From IMG/VR virus record IMGVR_UViG_3300045131_001403, positions 1 to 36,416 of that record: a stretch of DNA of 36,416 bases; one strand, given 5' to 3'. Below are positions 1,155-36,120 of this stretch, in pieces (positions within the stretch are counted from its first letter, which is position 1; every line of letters starts with the position of its first letter). The notes beneath the pieces are model-generated. The model made no database searches and was not told where the DNA came from. It was given only the letters and a program-made list of their open reading frames with translations. The translations under genes and the position numbers were made by a program. The DNA is from a virus.

Positions 1155-3647
1155 TTAAATAGAGCCTTTTCCCCATACCCCGGCGCGTTTTCTAAATGAA
1201 AGTTTATTAAATGCGCCGGAAGAGGCATCTATCTGATCTAAGTAACGACCATTTGGATATGAACTCAATTCCTGCACATAGTCGAAATTCCATGGAGCTT
1301 TCAACAACATGACATTTCCAGCACCCATCTGCGAGGCGAATGGATCGGCCCTCAATGCCTTATTCCCCTTTGGCAAATCCGCCTCGACAGTGAATCCCGC
1401 TAGATTCCTAATGGAATACATGGCGGATTCCTTTCCTCCGCTGCCACCCTCCTGCTCCATAAAGATTTTAACATCCACTCCATCGGCCAAAGCGGTGTTC
1501 CGCATGATCTTCTCTCTCTCATCCGCTCCCCAACGACCTCGAACGATATCCAAAACAATCACTCTACCATCAACTAGAACCCCCATTTTGAGTCCAACCG
1601 TATAACATCCCGCATTGACTGTTCCAGCTTTGTCCCAATAACGGATGACGCTTCTTAGCTGTGCTGGAACTGCTATGACTGTAGTCAACTTCTCCGTTTG
1701 AAACATACCTCCGCCCAATGGAGATGGGGATTGGAGGAACTGTCCCGCATAACCATACTCTCCGAGGTCTTTTCTTATCATCTCCAATACGTTTTTAGGC
1801 ATACGGAGTTCGTCAAGCAGACCATTAGTATACTTTTCCTTCAACTCGAAAGGACGGACTAGATCATTCTCCTCCGCCGGAAGACAAATATGCCTGCAAC
1901 TACCCTTCTCAAGGAAATGGGCGGAAGGGTCTGTCTCGGACAGTCTTTGTTGAATTAGAATGAATGGTGTTACCGCTTTATCCACTTTACGAGTGAGAAA
2001 TGTCTGATCAAGCCAATTGTTGGCTTGGTTCATCATAGTGGGACTTAGTACTTCCTGCATGTTAATAGGATCGTCACAGATAAGAAAATGACCATGCATA
2101 CCAACAACGGAACCGCCAGTAGATGTGGCAAAGCGCTCACCTCCTCCATTTATTTTGAAGAACCCCTTTTGATCTTGATCCTCCCGTATGGAAACTCCAA
2201 ACATGCGTTTATACTTCTCCGATTTAACAATATCCCTGCAACGCATGGACAAAGCCAGTGAAAGGGCATATGAGTAGGAGGAGCAGATGATGCGGGCGGA
2301 TGGCATTCTAGTCCATATCCAAGCGGGGAACATGATAGAGCAAACGGTGGAATTATGAACTGCAATGTCATTGACCGTAAAAGAGGAATCCTCCTCCACC
2401 GTGAGACATCTACAAGGTAGCATTCCAGCAGGCTCTATAGATACTATAGGATCGGATTGTAATTGATTATGGAACCTAGAACGCAGGAAACAGTGGGACT
2501 CCAATGTCCTTTTTTTCCTCCCAAGCACAGGGATGCGCTCAAAGAACTTCGAGGCGTTGTCCGTGTCGGATATATCCAAAACATAGTGTGTGTAGCCTGC
2601 TTTCGTTATTTTATCATCTTTTTTCTTGACACGTTTGCGTACACGCGCATTTATTCCAAAGCGGTAAAGTAAATGCTGGACTCCATCTAAAAGCTCTTTG
2701 CTCACGCTTGAGAACGAAATGGTGAATGTGTTCCTGTCGGGATGATGTTTGCTTATACAGCCGTCACAATGGAAATAAGCCGCTATGAATTTGGCTACTT
2801 GCTCATTTGATCCGTTGAAAATAAAGTCTGGTACTACTTTAGTGTAGGAATTCTTTCCGGCTATACCAGTTTCTCTTAACCAATTCTGTGCGTGAGCTGT
2901 GTTTACACGCACAACCTTCAAGTCTACATTCGATGCTTTGTAATTTGAAACAGTAGTGGAAAATCCTAGACTTCCAGCAGCAGCCACCAAATGTTCGACA
3001 TATTCCCCATCGGCAGATGTCACTGAGCAATTGCAACGTGTCTTTTCCTTATTAGCCCAAGTGCAAGATCCATCTCCAATGAAATAGCCAGCTAATGAAA
3101 AAGAATCATCGACATAATCCGATTTGCTTTGCTTAGGTTGTGGAAAAGGTAAAGCCAAACATTGTTTGACTACTAAGTCTTTGGATTGCACCCATCCTTC
3201 CGGAGTCAAAAATGGATGAGACAGCTCCGCATGGACAGCCCTTCCACAAAAAGACTCTATGCGAAGGCACTCCATCAAACCCTGCTCATGCACGGCTAAG
3301 ACTGGACGGAACCTACCCTTGTGGGTTAGAACCCTGTCACCAACCACAATGTCCTTCAGCTTCTTACGCTTCCCTGTGGAACAAAGGATCAGCTCCTCCT
3401 CCCATACTGGCTTGCTTGAACCGGGAGGAACATTACATACTAGATCATATTCTTTTGGAGTTCCATTGAAAACTCTTTCGGCCATTTTCTGCATCTCGGA
3501 GCATATGACTGTCATATGCCAGTTCCATTGGAGCTGTTCCGGAATGATCTCGTGCCAAAATTCTTTTAGGAAATCCTCGAATGATGCTTTGCAGACATCA
3601 ATTGAGGCCGCTTCCAGCACCTGTTTCCAATTCATTGAATGGGACAT
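1155..3647 (-). CDS. terL: terminase large subunit (TerL) with in-frame intein
   Basis: The packaging motor ATPase and headful nuclease, 830 residues before splicing and about 477 after. The N-terminal ATPase region ends in a P-loop (PPGSSK then S after splicing) that is interrupted by an intein at residues 80-432. Walker B is FLICDDP. The C-terminal half has the RNase H-like nuclease, with RYWDKAG and a late acidic motif (DQIDASSGAF). It would act with TerS and the portal to cut and pump phage DNA into the prohead. The start at ATG 3647 has AAGGTGG 9 bases upstream and overlaps TerS by 50 bp. The reading frame is continuous through the insert, so a group I intron is excluded. Motif identification is by eye. 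Confidence 0.93.
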   Translation of the reverse strand: MSHSMNWKQVLEAASIDVCKASFEDFLKEFWHEIIPEQLQWNWHMTVICSEMQKMAERVFNGTPKEYDLVCNVPPGSSKPVWEEELILCSTGKRKKLKDIVVGDRVLTHKGRFRPVLAVHEQGLMECLRIESFCGRAVHAELSHPFLTPEGWVQSKDLVVKQCLALPFPQPKQSKSDYVDDSFSLAGYFIGDGSCTWANKEKTRCNCSVTSADGEYVEHLVAAAGSLGFSTTVSNYKASNVDLKVVRVNTAHAQNWLRETGIAGKNSYTKVVPDFIFNGSNEQVAKFIAAYFHCDGCISKHHPDRNTFTISFSSVSKELLDGVQHLLYRFGINARVRKRVKKKDDKITKAGYTHYVLDISDTDNASKFFERIPVLGRKKRTLESHCFLRSRFHNQLQSDPIVSIEPAGMLPCRCLTVEEDSSFTVNDIAVHNSTVCSIMFPAWIWTRMPSARIICSSYSYALSLALSMRCRDIVKSEKYKRMFGVSIREDQDQKGFFKINGGGERFATSTGGSVVGMHGHFLICDDPINMQEVLSPTMMNQANNWLDQTFLTRKVDKAVTPFILIQQRLSETDPSAHFLEKGSCRHICLPAEENDLVRPFELKEKYTNGLLDELRMPKNVLEMIRKDLGEYGYAGQFLQSPSPLGGGMFQTEKLTTVIAVPAQLRSVIRYWDKAGTVNAGCYTVGLKMGVLVDGRVIVLDIVRGRWGADEREKIMRNTALADGVDVKIFMEQEGGSGGKESAMYSIRNLAGFTVEADLPKGNKALRADPFASQMGAGNVMLLKAPWNFDYVQELSSYPNGRYLDQIDASSGAFNKLSFRKRAGVWGKGSI
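2352..3410 (-). other. TerL intein with LAGLIDADG endonuclease, non-canonical Pro1
   Basis: A 353-residue intein inserted between K and S of the TerL P-loop (GSSK|S). Its C-terminal end is a normal block G (IAVHN|S). The residue aligned with the usual Cys1 is proline (PVWEEELI aligned with CLxxDTxI). Block F has Cys (CRCLTV) where most class 1 inteins have Asp, as in class 3 inteins, but block B has HPF rather than HxW and block G has Val rather than Thr at position 5. Two LAGLIDADG-like motifs (LAGYFIGDG near 186 and FIAAYFHCDG near 287) mark a homing endonuclease. Splicing is inferred from the intact P-loop that would result. This looks like a divergent class 3-type intein. Confidence 0.88.
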
Positions 3648-5598: not shown

Positions 5599-7956
5599 AT
5601 GACAAAAACACTTTTCGACTTTCAGAAAAAAGGCATACAGCATATAGATGCTCTTAACGGAAGATGTCTTTTAGCCGACGAGCCAGGACTTGGCAAAGAA
5701 CTTTTCATAGACACCAAAGTTCTGACAAGAGATGGTTGGGAAAGGATAGGCACTATCAAGACAGGGGATGTCATCTATGGAAAAGATGGTCGTCTGCACT
5801 CCGTGATGGGAGTGTATCCTCAAGGGGTGAAACCTCTATACAATGTAGTATTTAGCGATGGAGTAAAAATATTAGCTGGATTGGAACATCAATGGTGTGT
5901 TAGAACTGAAGCGGACAAATATAGAAATCGTCCTTGGAGAGTGAAAACCACAGATGAACTTTTGAATGATATTCGATTTCCCAATGGAAATGTGAAGTGG
6001 GAAATTCCACTTGTGGAGCCGATACAGCATTTAGAGAAAGAATTTATTATCGATCCATATATTCTCGGCGTGCTTATTGGAGATGGTTCATTACAAAACA
6101 GTGTTAAATATGTTCCGGGGGATGATGAGACACCTTCCTTGGTGGCTAGTAGACTTCCAAATGAAGTAACACAGAACAAAGGAGCGGACTATGGAACATC
6201 AACAGCATATTACATTTCAAGAAAAGAAAAGTTTCCACGCAGAAATCCTTTCCTTGATGAAATTCGCAGTATGGGATTGAATATACATGGGGACAACAAA
6301 TTTATACCGAAAGAGTATATGTGTGGTTCCATCGATCAAAGAAAAGATTTACTGGCCGGACTGCTTGACACGGATGGTTGTGCTGGAAAAGGAGGAAGGA
6401 CACGCTTCTTTACCGTCTCAAAACAACTAGCTGATGATGTTGTGGAGTTAATTCAGTCACTTGGAGGAATGTCGAGATACAGCGTGGTGAAAGGCAAAGA
6501 ACGCAATAGGAATGGAAAAATATGTCTTGAAAAGGATGTCTATCACATAACGGTTAGAACCACATTCAATCCTTTTAAAAGAGAATTCAACAAAGTTCGC
6601 TGGACACAAAGCCAAAAGATGAGAAGAGCAATCACATCCATAACTTATTCCCATGATGCGGAGGCTGTTTGCATCTCCGTAGATGCGAAAGACAGTCTTT
6701 ATGTGATAGAAGGACATGTCATCACACACAACACATCACAATCTATATACTGGGTTGGATGGAGGCAGAAGTTTCCTTGCCTCATAGTATGCCCATCCAG
6801 TTTGAAAATCAATTGGCATAGGGAAATTGATATGTGGCTTCCGGGATGCACAGTGCAAATCCTAAACGGAAGGACACCCACTAAAATAAATCCCAAAGCT
6901 CATTTCGTCATAGCGAACTATGATATCATTGGAGGGTGGGAAAAAACTTTATTGGAAGTAGGTTTCGCCTCCATGCTGGTGGATGAGCATCACATGATAA
7001 AGACACCGACATCAAAAAGAACAACTTCCGTTATGATGATTGGAAAGACTATTCCGCATTATATCGCCATCACAGGCACTCCCATTCTATCTCGACCATC
7101 GGAGATTTGGACGGCACTGAACATTTTGAATGAAAAAGAATGGCCTAATTGGTATTCATTCGCATTTAGATACTGTAAAGCGCACAAGACGACCTATGGT
7201 TTGGACGTGAGAGGACATTCCAACATAACTGAATTAAGCGGAAAACTCTCAAAAGTGATGATCAGAAGATTGAAGAAGGATGTTCTTCCCGATCTTCCAA
7301 AGAAAATCAGGGGAATGCTCACTTTGGACATAGACAATCAAAGCGAGTATGATGTGGCCATGCTTGGATTCAGCGATTGGCTGAAAGGAGGAAAAGCCAA
7401 GAACAGAATGGAGGGCATAGCCAAATTGGAGTATGCTAGACAGGCGGCGGTAAAAGGGAAGATGAAACAGATAACGGAATGGATCGAAAACTTTCTTGAA
7501 AGCGGACAGAAATTGGTTTTGTTTGGAGTGCATAGGGAGCCGCTGATAAATCTACATAAGAAATTTCATAATTCAGTGTTGATAAATGGAGACACTTCCG
7601 CAGTGGAGAAGCAAAGGGCCGTAGACCGCTTGCAGAACGACAGCAAGACGAATCTGCTTCTAGGCAATATCCAAGCCGCAGGAGTGGGTTTAACGCTCAC
7701 AGCGGCCTCCAATGTGGCTTTTATAGAGCTTCCATGGGTTCCCGCTTTGGTGATTCAAGCGGAGGACAGATGCAACAGAATCGGAAGTGTCTACTGCACG
7801 AACATCTATTATCTACTAGCTAAAAACACAATAGAGGAGCAGTTGTTCGACATTATAAATATGAAGCAGAAATTGGTGGACAGGATAATCGATGGAGTGG
7901 ACACCATGGAGGAGACAAGCGTGTTCGATGAGATGGTGTCTTTATACTCTAAATAA
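5599..7956 (+). CDS. SNF2-family helicase/ATPase with in-frame intein
   Basis: A superfamily 2 translocase of 785 residues, 440 after splicing. The motif I P-loop (DEPGLGK|T) is split by an intein (residues 34-378). Downstream come motif Ia (CLIVCPSSL), a DEHH Walker B, TGTP (motif III), AAGVGLTL (motif V) and QAEDRCNRIG (motif VI), in the order expected of SNF2/SMARCAL1-like enzymes. Phage members are thought to remodel forks or branched DNA, comparable in role to T4 UvsW. No extra DNA-binding domain is visible. Start ATG 5599 has AGGAT 7 bases upstream. It is the first gene of the 5599-9337 operon with primase. Confidence 0.92.
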   Translation: MTKTLFDFQKKGIQHIDALNGRCLLADEPGLGKELFIDTKVLTRDGWERIGTIKTGDVIYGKDGRLHSVMGVYPQGVKPLYNVVFSDGVKILAGLEHQWCVRTEADKYRNRPWRVKTTDELLNDIRFPNGNVKWEIPLVEPIQHLEKEFIIDPYILGVLIGDGSLQNSVKYVPGDDETPSLVASRLPNEVTQNKGADYGTSTAYYISRKEKFPRRNPFLDEIRSMGLNIHGDNKFIPKEYMCGSIDQRKDLLAGLLDTDGCAGKGGRTRFFTVSKQLADDVVELIQSLGGMSRYSVVKGKERNRNGKICLEKDVYHITVRTTFNPFKREFNKVRWTQSQKMRRAITSITYSHDAEAVCISVDAKDSLYVIEGHVITHNTSQSIYWVGWRQKFPCLIVCPSSLKINWHREIDMWLPGCTVQILNGRTPTKINPKAHFVIANYDIIGGWEKTLLEVGFASMLVDEHHMIKTPTSKRTTSVMMIGKTIPHYIAITGTPILSRPSEIWTALNILNEKEWPNWYSFAFRYCKAHKTTYGLDVRGHSNITELSGKLSKVMIRRLKKDVLPDLPKKIRGMLTLDIDNQSEYDVAMLGFSDWLKGGKAKNRMEGIAKLEYARQAAVKGKMKQITEWIENFLESGQKLVLFGVHREPLINLHKKFHNSVLINGDTSAVEKQRAVDRLQNDSKTNLLLGNIQAAGVGLTLTAASNVAFIELPWVPALVIQAEDRCNRIGSVYCTNIYYLLAKNTIEEQLFDIINMKQKLVDRIIDGVDTMEETSVFDEMVSLYSK
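5698..6732 (+). other. class 3 intein with LAGLIDADG endonuclease in the helicase P-loop
   Basis: A 345-residue intein between K and T of the P-loop (GLGK|T). It starts ELFIDTKV, so Glu replaces the N-terminal nucleophile. All three residues that define class 3 inteins are present: Trp in block B (GLEHQW, residue 99), Cys in block F (AVCISVD, residue 358) and Thr in block G (VITHN|T, residue 376). In this class the block F Cys attacks first. The endonuclease carries ILGVLIGDG (near 155) and LLAGLLDTDG (near 251). Splicing would restore an intact P-loop. Confidence 0.93.
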
Positions 7957-22348: not shown

Positions 22349-23509
22349 ATGCTTTTCGAAGAAGCTGATGGAAATGTGAACACTCCTATGTGCTCTAAGT
22401 GCAAAGGATATTCGAATTCCAATTATTCTTATATGGAAATGATAGGAAGGGGAGACAAGATTCTTTTTGTCACGGATGATTTCAATAAGAATCCTAAAGA
22501 GTCGTGGCTGGCTCCTAGAATGGAAAGGTTCATTAAAGACATCTGCGAGGATTTGAAACTTAACTACAACACTGACTGCGGAGTGGTTCCAGCCTATAAA
22601 TGCGACGGAAACGACAAAGGAGCCTCGTTTTGCCACTTTCCCGTGTGTAATATCATCCAATCCGCAAATGCCCGTAGCGTCGTTCTATTAGGCAAAAACG
22701 CCCTAGTCTCCGTTGTTGGAAGCAAGTGGAAACGGGACATAGGGGAACTTGACAAGTGGATTGGTTTCACAATACCTATTTATGATCGATGGATCATTCC
22801 GACATATAATCCATTTCAAGAGTATGGCAATGAATTTGTAATAGACAATCATGTTCCCACTAAAATTCTATTTGAGAACATCACTAAAGCGAATGATTAT
22901 AGAAACCACCCCATAACAAGTGTGCAAAAAACTGCCAAAATCAAAATCTTGTCGGAAAATGAATCCGTCATTCTTTTGGAGTCCATGAAGGAGGATTGTC
23001 CCCTTTCAGCTTTCGACTATGAGACTACTGGGCTACGTCCATATAATAAAGGACACTCCATAGAGACTGTCAGCGTGGCATTCAAAAGAAAAGATGTTCT
23101 AACATCATATGCGTTCACTGTGTCCGATAAGAATTCCCAAGCAATTAAAGATTACTTGCAGAATGGAAATCTCAAGAAGATAGCCTCCAATATGAAGTTT
23201 GAGGACACATGGAGCAAAGTCATCTTCGGAGTAGGTGTGAAAGGGTGGGTTTTCGACACCATGCTCGCCCAACACATCATTGATTGCAGAGAGGGGATAT
23301 GCTCTTTGAAGTTTCAAGCGTTCGTGAGATATGGTTTTGAGGACTATGAGGCGAAAGTGAAGCCTTTTCTCATAGCGAAAGATGCTTCCTCGTTAAACAA
23401 TATCAAAAACTGTTCTTATCCGCTGCTGTTGAAATATAATGCCATTGACTCATACTTGGAATATGTGTTGGCGGAGGATATGATGAATGAACTGGGGGTG
23501 GTCATATGA
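22349..23509 (+). CDS. UDG-like domain fused to 3'-5' proofreading exonuclease
   Basis: A 386-residue protein. ATG 22349 has GGTGGAG upstream; the open frame from 22304 would run through the terminator. Residues 1-170 resemble the family 4 uracil-DNA-glycosylase-like domain found at the N-terminus of SPO1-type phage polymerases, with cysteines at 15, 18, 95 and 100 that could hold an iron-sulfur cluster. Residues 200-386 are a DEDDy exonuclease: FDYETTGL (223-225), N281/D286, D303 and Y363/D367. It would proofread for the polymerase encoded next (ATGA overlap). In SPO1 these domains share one chain; here they are separate. Confidence 0.8.
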   Translation: MLFEEADGNVNTPMCSKCKGYSNSNYSYMEMIGRGDKILFVTDDFNKNPKESWLAPRMERFIKDICEDLKLNYNTDCGVVPAYKCDGNDKGASFCHFPVCNIIQSANARSVVLLGKNALVSVVGSKWKRDIGELDKWIGFTIPIYDRWIIPTYNPFQEYGNEFVIDNHVPTKILFENITKANDYRNHPITSVQKTAKIKILSENESVILLESMKEDCPLSAFDYETTGLRPYNKGHSIETVSVAFKRKDVLTSYAFTVSDKNSQAIKDYLQNGNLKKIASNMKFEDTWSKVIFGVGVKGWVFDTMLAQHIIDCREGICSLKFQAFVRYGFEDYEAKVKPFLIAKDASSLNNIKNCSYPLLLKYNAIDSYLEYVLAEDMMNELGVVI

Positions 23510-26043
23510 ATCAGTTGGATGCCTATAATCTATTTCATGAGGGGACTAAGGCTCTAGGAATAGCGGAGCGCAATGGCATGAGGGTCGATGTGAGGCTTCT
23601 TGATGCCACGATAGACAAGGAGGGAGGACGATGTTCCGTTATATCAAGTGAGTTGGATGCCATGGTGGAGGGTAGACAATGGAAGGAGAAGTATGGTTCA
23701 AATTCCTCCTATCTATCTCCGCAGCAGCTCACAGTCATATTGAAAAATTATGGTTTGACCATTGAAAAAGCGGATAAAGCTGTTTTATCTAAAATAGAAT
23801 CTCCATTTGTAAGGAAGATTCTCGAACTCCGTAAAATATCCAAGATGATAGCCAGTCTGACAGGATTCAAGCGGGAAGTCACCAATGATGAAAGGATACA
23901 CCCATCATTTCACCTTCATGGAGTGTCCTCATACCGTTCCAGCAGTTCCAATCCAAACTTTCAAAACATAGCTATTCGTGATCCCGAGACTGCGGAACGC
24001 ATTCGAAGTTTGTTCATTCCCACAAGTGGATATAGGTTACTTGAGGTCGATTATTGTTTCACAGGAGACACACAAATTGAAACAACTGGTGGAAGGAAGA
24101 CCCTCAAAGAAATAGTGGAAAAGCAAGATTTGTGTCATGTGTATGGATATGACAAGGATAAAGGAAGGGTGTGTGTATCTCGTATCATAAGAGCAGCTAA
24201 GACACAAACAAGCCAGCCTGTGTTTACTGTTACCTTAGACAATGGGGAAACTGCTAAAGCCACGGCTAACCATAGGTTCATGTTGAGAGATGGTTCTTAT
24301 CGGGAGTTGCGGTCCCTTCGTCCTGGCGATTCCCTCATGCCATTTTATACCACCACACTGTCACAAACCAATATAAAAACTAAGTACAGATGGGTGTATT
24401 TGAATAATGGTGAAAAGATGAAAGCCCATAATCTTGTGGCTTTGGATGTTCTTGGATACACTATCAAAGGTTCTTATAAAATTGTGCATCACAGGAATGG
24501 GAATGGGTGGGATAATGATCCATCTAACTTAGTGGTGATGGACAGAAAAGAACACATGTCTATACATTCAAAACAAGGTTGGGAAAACACTAAAAATGGA
24601 GCAGAACACAAAAGACAGACTTATCAACGTTCGGCAGAGGGCAGAGCTGAACAAAGCATAAGAAGTAAAAGGATACATGATGAAACACCTGAGTGCATTA
24701 AAAGGGAGTGGTATAAACACATCTCAGAAAGCCATAAGGGTCTTTATGAAGGTTCTAAAAACCCCATGTATGGAAAAAAACACAAAATTGAGACAGTGGA
24801 GAAGATAAGAGCTACTAAAAAAAGACAGAACATAAAGTCTTTTTTAGGAAGAACCCATTCTATGGAGACACGTTTACTTTTAAGTGCAAAAAACAAAGGG
24901 AAAAAACTAACGGAGGTAATCAAACGCAAAATATCTGCTTCTGGAAAGGGTAGAATATGCAAGGAGGAGACAAGGAAACTACTACGAGAGAGGGTGTTCA
25001 CTGAGAGTACAAGGATGAAAATGGGGAAGGGCATTAAAGAAAGGTGGAAAAAAGCCAAGACACACTCATGCCCTATCTGTAAAAAGGAATATAGGTCGCT
25101 AAGTGGAATTCCCTCTACCACACATTTACGTCATAAGCATGGTTTGACAACGGAAGAGTTCAAGGACACCTACAACCACAAGGTTGTTTCCGTTGATTTC
25201 TATGGTTATGAGGATGTTTACAATATCACAGTGGATAGGATTCATAATTATGCTTTGAAGGCAGGTGTCATTGTTGCTAATTGTGGAATCGAAGTCCGTG
25301 CGTCAACATTCTACAATAAAGACCCTGTGCTTATAAATTACATTTTGGACAAGACTACTGATATGCACAAGGATATGGCTTCCGAGTGCTATATGCTGCC
25401 AAAGGATAAAGTGACGAAGGAGATTCGTTACTGCGCGAAGAACATGTTCGTGTTTCCGGCTTTCTATGGATCATACTACAAGCAGATCGCCCCTCATTTG
25501 TGGAATGCCATTGGAGATATGAAACTAAAACTGTCCGATGGAACTGATTTGGCTTCCCATGTTGCGGCTAGAATAGGTGATCGAAATGATTTCATGGCCC
25601 ACATACAAAAAGTGGAGAACGCTTTTTGGAATGATAGATTCAAAGTCTACACACAATGGAAAAAGGATTTCTACAGCAAATATTTGGAGAGGGGTTACTT
25701 CGACTCATTGACAGGATTCCGCTACAAAGGAGAGTTCAAACGGAATCAAGTGCTGAATTATGCGATTCAAGGAACGGCATTCCACTGTCTTCTATGGAGT
25801 TTCATCGAACTCACGAAGGAATTCATCAAGAATAAGTGGAAATCAAAAGTGATAGGACAGATTCACGATAGTATCATAACTGAAATCCATGATAGCGAAT
25901 TCGAGGCTTATAAGGTGTTGATCAAAGACATCATGACTAGACGTGTGGTTCAGGCGTTTCCATTCATCAATGTTCCATTGGAAGTGGAGATAGAAGCCGC
26001 AGGGGTGGACGAATCTTGGCACAAAAAGAAAGCTGTCAAGTGA
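23506..26043 (+). CDS. family A DNA polymerase with in-frame intein
   Basis: The replicative polymerase, 845 residues before splicing and 436 after. It starts directly with the thumb region (GIAERNGMRVDVRLL) and lacks both exonuclease domains; proofreading comes from the upstream gene. Motif A is LLEVDY|CGIEVRA, split by an intein at residues 184-592. Motif B (RYCAKNMFVFPAFYG) and motif C (GQIHDSI) are intact. The YSSSSNPNFQNI segment is typical of Pol I enzymes. It overlaps the exonuclease gene by ATGA, which suggests equal synthesis. A promoter lies just after it for the clamp loader. Confidence 0.93.
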   Translation: MNQLDAYNLFHEGTKALGIAERNGMRVDVRLLDATIDKEGGRCSVISSELDAMVEGRQWKEKYGSNSSYLSPQQLTVILKNYGLTIEKADKAVLSKIESPFVRKILELRKISKMIASLTGFKREVTNDERIHPSFHLHGVSSYRSSSSNPNFQNIAIRDPETAERIRSLFIPTSGYRLLEVDYCFTGDTQIETTGGRKTLKEIVEKQDLCHVYGYDKDKGRVCVSRIIRAAKTQTSQPVFTVTLDNGETAKATANHRFMLRDGSYRELRSLRPGDSLMPFYTTTLSQTNIKTKYRWVYLNNGEKMKAHNLVALDVLGYTIKGSYKIVHHRNGNGWDNDPSNLVVMDRKEHMSIHSKQGWENTKNGAEHKRQTYQRSAEGRAEQSIRSKRIHDETPECIKREWYKHISESHKGLYEGSKNPMYGKKHKIETVEKIRATKKRQNIKSFLGRTHSMETRLLLSAKNKGKKLTEVIKRKISASGKGRICKEETRKLLRERVFTESTRMKMGKGIKERWKKAKTHSCPICKKEYRSLSGIPSTTHLRHKHGLTTEEFKDTYNHKVVSVDFYGYEDVYNITVDRIHNYALKAGVIVANCGIEVRASTFYNKDPVLINYILDKTTDMHKDMASECYMLPKDKVTKEIRYCAKNMFVFPAFYGSYYKQIAPHLWNAIGDMKLKLSDGTDLASHVAARIGDRNDFMAHIQKVENAFWNDRFKVYTQWKKDFYSKYLERGYFDSLTGFRYKGEFKRNQVLNYAIQGTAFHCLLWSFIELTKEFIKNKWKSKVIGQIHDSIITEIHDSEFEAYKVLIKDIMTRRVVQAFPFINVPLEVEIEAAGVDESWHKKKAVK
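24055..25281 (+). other. polymerase intein with HNH endonuclease and NUMOD3-like repeats
   Basis: A 409-residue intein at motif A (VDY|C1 ... VAN|C). Block A CFTGDTQIETTGG and block B TANH are class 1. The penultimate residue is Ala (IVAN|C) instead of His, a known functional variant. The endonuclease is HNH type (VHHRNGNGWDNDPSNL near 327-342), followed by NUMOD3-like DNA-binding repeats (NPMYGKKHKIETVEKI, FLGRTHSMETRLLLS) and a CPIC...H...H zinc finger. This differs from the LAGLIDADG endonucleases of the other two inteins. Confidence 0.93.
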
Positions 26044-35631: not shown

Positions 35632-36120
35632 ATGTTTACCCTCGACTCTACTATAATGACTTCCAAAGGAGGTATTCCAGCGAGTGATATCTCTTTGGAC
35701 ACGAGAATATATCTGGGAAGAGGGGATTTCCACAAACCAATCAAAATAAATAAAATAGATTTAACCACCTTTTTCATCGTGAGGTGTCATGGAGGCTATG
35801 AGATAAAAGTTTCGGAGGACACCCACTTTAAAAAAGAAAGACATTATAGACCACTAGTGTGGCTGCATCATGATGCTAGACTAGGAGTTTACGATGGTGT
35901 TCACAGCAGTCTCTATAGAAAACTATTGAATATAGAAGTCGTAGACACGAAAACCACATTCATCCAGTTGAAATTCAATTTCACGAGAGGAATAAATGTG
36001 ATCGTAAACAATTTCTATATTCAATTAAGTCCTCATCCGATTTACACGAAAGAGAAAAGTCTTGTTAGAAAATACACGACTAAAGACTTGAAAAAAATAT
36101 TGAAAGAAACAGCTAGTTAG
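35632..36120 (+). CDS. stand-alone Hint (intein-like) domain protein
   Basis: A 162-residue protein. The start MFTLDSTIMTSKGGIPASD matches intein block A (CFTGDTQI in the polymerase intein) with Met at the Cys1 position. A block-B-like GGYEIKVSEDTH follows near 54-65, and the end has FNFTRGINVIVNNFYIQL, like block F running into the end of a Hint fold, but no HN or C-terminal nucleophile. Probably a degenerate or repurposed Hint domain. There is no clear ribosome site, so it may be coupled to the upstream gene, whose stop is 3 bases away in the same frame. Confidence 0.62.
   Translation: MFTLDSTIMTSKGGIPASDISLDTRIYLGRGDFHKPIKINKIDLTTFFIVRCHGGYEIKVSEDTHFKKERHYRPLVWLHHDARLGVYDGVHSSLYRKLLNIEVVDTKTTFIQLKFNFTRGINVIVNNFYIQLSPHPIYTKEKSLVRKYTTKDLKKILKETAS

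Follow-up and report, generated by a model that had tools for sequence, protein, structure and literature searches.

The window, as we call the whole stretch of DNA analysed here (36,416 nucleotides, viral record IMGVR_UViG_3300045131_001403), carries on its plus strand a gene of 785 codons (positions 5599-7956), in which both domains of an SNF2 helicase are recognized by Pfam (SNF2-rel_dom, E 7.9e-29; Helicase_C, E 1.3e-10). The gene is interrupted by an intein of 345 amino acids, extending from Glu1 to Asn345 (5698-6732, plus strand). The N-extein (5599-5697) ends in LADEPGLGK, the first half of the helicase P-loop, and the C-extein (6733-7953) starts with TSQSIYWVGW and retains the helicase motifs DEHH and QAEDRCNRIG. 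The insert thus lies between the Lys and the Thr of the P-loop (GK/T, the slash marking a junction), and the frame is open across extein, intein and extein. For positions 1-24000 of the window, no nucleotide relative was found among public phages.

The insertion site was examined by excising the intein on paper, which yields ...LLADEPGLGKTSQSIYW... across the helicase junction. The resulting protein aligns with the intein-free SNF2 helicase of Bacteroides phage BKO1-TP3 (...IIGDEPGLGKTLQSIG...), as well as with SNF2 helicases that carry no intein in phages of Thermus, Cellulophaga and Arthrobacter and in IMG/VR contigs. Empty sites are likewise evident in SNF2 homologues of other phages, which run gaplessly through ...GDEPGLGKTLQS.... 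The codon positions and extein junctions agree exactly with the intein boundaries (5698-6732) proposed in an earlier, sequence-only reading, and the Pfam matches and intein-free homologues bear out its SNF2 host and its GK/T insertion point. Because the insert parts the P-loop Lys from the Thr, and because a P-loop intein in the RadA protein of P. horikoshii has been reported to disrupt the ATPase (PMC6195587), it is reasonable to infer that the unspliced SNF2 helicase would be inactive.

Class 3 inteins are defined by Trp in position B:12, Cys in F:4 and Thr in G:5 (PMC5222942). As judged from the sequence, the first residue of the helicase intein is Glu (5698-5700) rather than a Cys, Ser or Thr nucleophile, and the three defining positions are occupied by Trp66 (5893-5895), Cys325 (6670-6672), the predicted first nucleophile, and Thr343 (6724-6726), all on the plus strand. 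The accompanying residues are also present: His64 in position B:10 (5887-5889; the His64-Gln-Trp66 segment of block B spans 5887-5895), His344 in G:6 (6727-6729) and Asn345 in G:7 (6730-6732), which complete the Thr-His-Asn of block G (6724-6732), followed by Thr in position +1 (6733-6735). A phmmer search of the PDB ranks first the DnaB-1 intein of Mycobacterium smegmatis (Msm; 6bs8), which belongs to class 3 and in which HQW is paired with HQW, Cys with Cys and THN with THN, the C-terminal segment being weak by itself.

The same residues were then enumerated in an alignment of 172 rows, composed of the window intein and its relatives from phages, viral contigs and bacterial genomes. His B:10, the block F Cys, the block G Thr, His G:6 and Asn are found in all 172 rows and Trp in 170, such that the complete Trp/Cys/Thr triplet occurs in 170 of the 172, the two exceptions lacking only the Trp. 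In these two (L016 and L062), Cys F:4 and Thr G:5 are kept and Ile or His replaces Trp in B:12; L016 additionally has a Cys in position 1. Glu is the third most frequent first residue (10/172 rows), behind Ala and Ser. In position B:7 the helicase intein has Gly, found in 23 of the 172 rows, where Cys or Asp is commoner. Since its relatives match it along the full length, with E values as low as about 1e-57, and none of 200,000 shuffled sequences matched even a loose version of the signature, chance is excluded as its source. The alignments to 6bs8 and to the 172 rows therefore confirm that the Trp, Cys and Thr lie within the defined block positions, together with a Glu start, as the sequence-only reading had described. 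Pfam Intein_splicing does not match the SNF2 intein (in the whole record only the DNA polymerase A intein scores), which says nothing about its class 3 status.

In an unrooted tree of the splicing domains (145 columns), the helicase intein falls inside the group bearing the Trp/Cys/Thr signature (WCT, class 3), whose 24 rows form one side of a branch with support of 100/100. A confident AlphaFold2 model of the intein (pLDDT 92.4, pTM 0.91) matches PI-SceI over its full length (Z 28), as is expected for an intein that bears a LAGLIDADG endonuclease. When the splicing domain is considered separately, the top solved match is again the class 3 6bs8 (Z 19.2, 1.5 Å, 123 residues), followed by the class 3 structures 6riy (Z 18.9) and 6rix (Z 18.6), with a range of 1.5-2.1 Å for the class 3 DnaB inteins; the target-normalised TM-score of 6bs8, 0.84, is the highest among the listed mini-inteins. 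The class 1 inteins gp41-1 (Z 18.0) and Ssp DnaB (Z 17.9) score just below; taken by itself, the fold is a weak discriminator between the two classes. Alignment, tree and fold all uphold the class 3 assignment, which itself rests on the residues and not on the fold.

The homing endonuclease domain occupies approximately positions 6049-6600 on the plus strand (Pfam LAGLIDADG_3, E 1.7e-6, protein residues 249-304). Its acidic residues, Asp129 (6082-6084) and Asp224 (6367-6369), are kept, and Asp occupies the corresponding columns in 165 and 172 of the 172 rows, respectively. The endonuclease is therefore intact-looking in sequence and, by comparison with studied relatives, it probably cleaves intein-free helicase genes and thereby spreads the element. 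LAGLIDADG endonucleases were found in 82.5% of the class 3 inteins in a published survey (PMC7891396).

Relatives of the helicase intein are numerous. Matches were found in 873 of 50,697 phage records, and in 713 of these the match spans 80% or more of the query, always with identity below 60%; the search was seeded with the window intein, and these counts do not represent a census. In 28 of the loci examined, an identical copy of the window intein in a second contig being excluded from the count, a WCT intein immediately precedes sequence resembling an SNF2 helicase, and the junction is mostly GLGK/T. Glu1 is shared by two of the 28, L113 (a Chthoniobacterales MAG) and L041 (an IMG/VR contig), both of which show PGLGK/...THN/T as in the window; their inteins are about 34-37% identical to that of the window and are grouped apart from it in the tree. 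In an uncultured phage of 484 kb (LR756508.1, a record without annotation), the homologous helicase is interrupted at the common insertion point (GVGK/...THN/T) by an intein which is 37% identical but starts with Ala1 instead of Glu1. The nearest solved relatives are class 3 DnaB inteins of mycobacteria, the Msm DnaB-1 intein being the closest in sequence. Like the window intein it resides in a helicase P-loop after Gly-Lys, and the W, C and T, both His residues and the Asn align; unlike the latter, it is a mini-intein of 139 amino acids that lacks an endonuclease, starts with Ala1, is followed by Ser in position +1 and has DnaB as its host (PMC5222942, PMC6195587). The Snf2 intein of Deinococcus radiodurans (Brace et al. 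2010), as described in PMC4031507 and PMC11219805, likewise combines an SNF2 host with class 3, but it sits in a bacterial chromosome rather than a phage. The earlier characterization of class 3 inteins as rare is out of date, since by 2020 a published survey of nr had reached a total of 1701 (PMC7891396), and the helicase intein is a genuine but ordinary further example of a well-known type.

Very probably, then, the element is a canonical class 3 intein that bears a LAGLIDADG endonuclease and interrupts the P-loop of an SNF2 helicase encoded by a phage; its splicing is best read as following the class 3 route. The chemistry is drawn by analogy from tested class 3 inteins (PMC5222942, PMC7891396, PMC6195587), in three of which, all mini-inteins, replacement of Cys F:4 by Ala abolished splicing (PMC5222942). 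Cys325, assisted by His64 and Thr343, would attack the peptide bond between Lys and Glu1 to form a thioester branched at block F, with Trp66 in a structural role. The N-extein would then be passed to Thr+1 (the block G branch), cyclisation of Asn345 would release the intein, and an acyl shift would form the Lys-Thr peptide bond and restore GLGKT. Because this shift seals Lys to Thr, the same Thr would serve both as splicing nucleophile and as part of the P-loop once the helicase is mature, a dual role similar to that reported for the Ser in the DnaB P-loop (PMC6195587).

The lack of a nucleophile in position 1 is shared with class 2 inteins, such that Thr+1 might attack the N-terminal bond directly, with Cys325 merely assisting. 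Class 2, however, comprises the orthologues of Mja KlbA, which have Ser in G:6, Asp in F:4 and Cys in +1 (PMC4031507), whereas the helicase intein has His, Cys and Thr in these positions and is placed in the WCT group of the tree; a class 2-like route is thus extremely improbable. The element could instead have decayed to a non-splicing form and left the helicase dead, and one intein of class 3 type (Arsp-FB24 Arth_1007) has been described as a pseudogene (PMC3196547). Such decay is very unlikely here, as the frame is open throughout, the catalytic residues, the acidic residues of the endonuclease and the helicase motifs are all kept, and the identical copy exists in a second contig.

Other intein-like elements were observed in the window. 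The DNA polymerase A ORF (23506-26043, plus strand) contains a class 1 intein of 409 amino acids (24055-25281, plus strand), which starts with Cys1, ends in VAN/C, carries an HNH/NUMOD3 endonuclease and lacks the penultimate His. A stand-alone ORF of 162 amino acids (35632-36120, plus strand) begins with a segment resembling an intein N-terminus (TLDSTIMTSKGGIPASDISLDTRIYLGRGD...EDTHF) and has no extein; no Pfam, NCBIfam or phage match was found for it, and an identical copy is present in IMGVR_UViG_3300046005_001432. Outside the window, a class 3 (VTHN/T) and a class 1 (YAHN/S) intein (L205 and L222) appear to lie in tandem in one open frame of a bacterial genome.

The terminase gene (1155-3647, minus strand) harbors an intein of 353 amino acids (2352-3410, minus strand) that starts with Pro1. 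It keeps the block F Cys (Cys335, F:4) without the class 3 Trp and Thr, which are replaced by Phe in B:12 and Val in G:5. About sixteen homologues with this pattern, with Pro (or Asp) as first residue, occur in other phages and contigs (L183-L204), namely in Caulobacter, Brevundimonas and Mesorhizobium phages and in IMG/VR contigs. Throughout this lineage the block F Cys is invariant, Phe, Ile or Tyr stands in for Trp in B:12 and Val for Thr; block F (near 'CRCLTVEEDHSF') and block G (near 'VVHN/S') are class 1-like. The Pro1 junction looks secure, since splicing one of the homologues (L190) on paper produces MPPRHGKSE, a usual terminase P-loop.

Under a definition of class 3 by the absence of a starting Cys and the presence of Cys in F:4 (PMC7891396), these sequences would belong to class 3 but depart from its pattern at two positions; among surveyed class 3 inteins, 4.6% deviate from the Thr and 6.1% from the Trp (PMC7891396). 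In the tree the terminase inteins lie between the WCT (100/100) and class 1 (100/97) groups, and a topology that unites them in a single clade is not rejected (p-AU 0.305); being unrooted and based on 145 columns, the tree is silent on whether they descend from the WCT or the class 1 side.

The helicase intein adds one class 3 sequence and a further instance of the P-loop preference of such elements, and little else. The terminase intein is the more curious of the two, as it bears on the origin of class 3, for which one published view denies a direct descent from class 1 (PMC7664689). If its block F Cys starts splicing, the terminase intein may, as a tentative suggestion, be a relic of the passage from class 1 to class 3, or else show that initiation from block F evolved a second time, independently. 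An intein of class 1-like build that has this Cys but neither the Trp nor the Thr would make the derivation of class 3 from class 1 a testable question.
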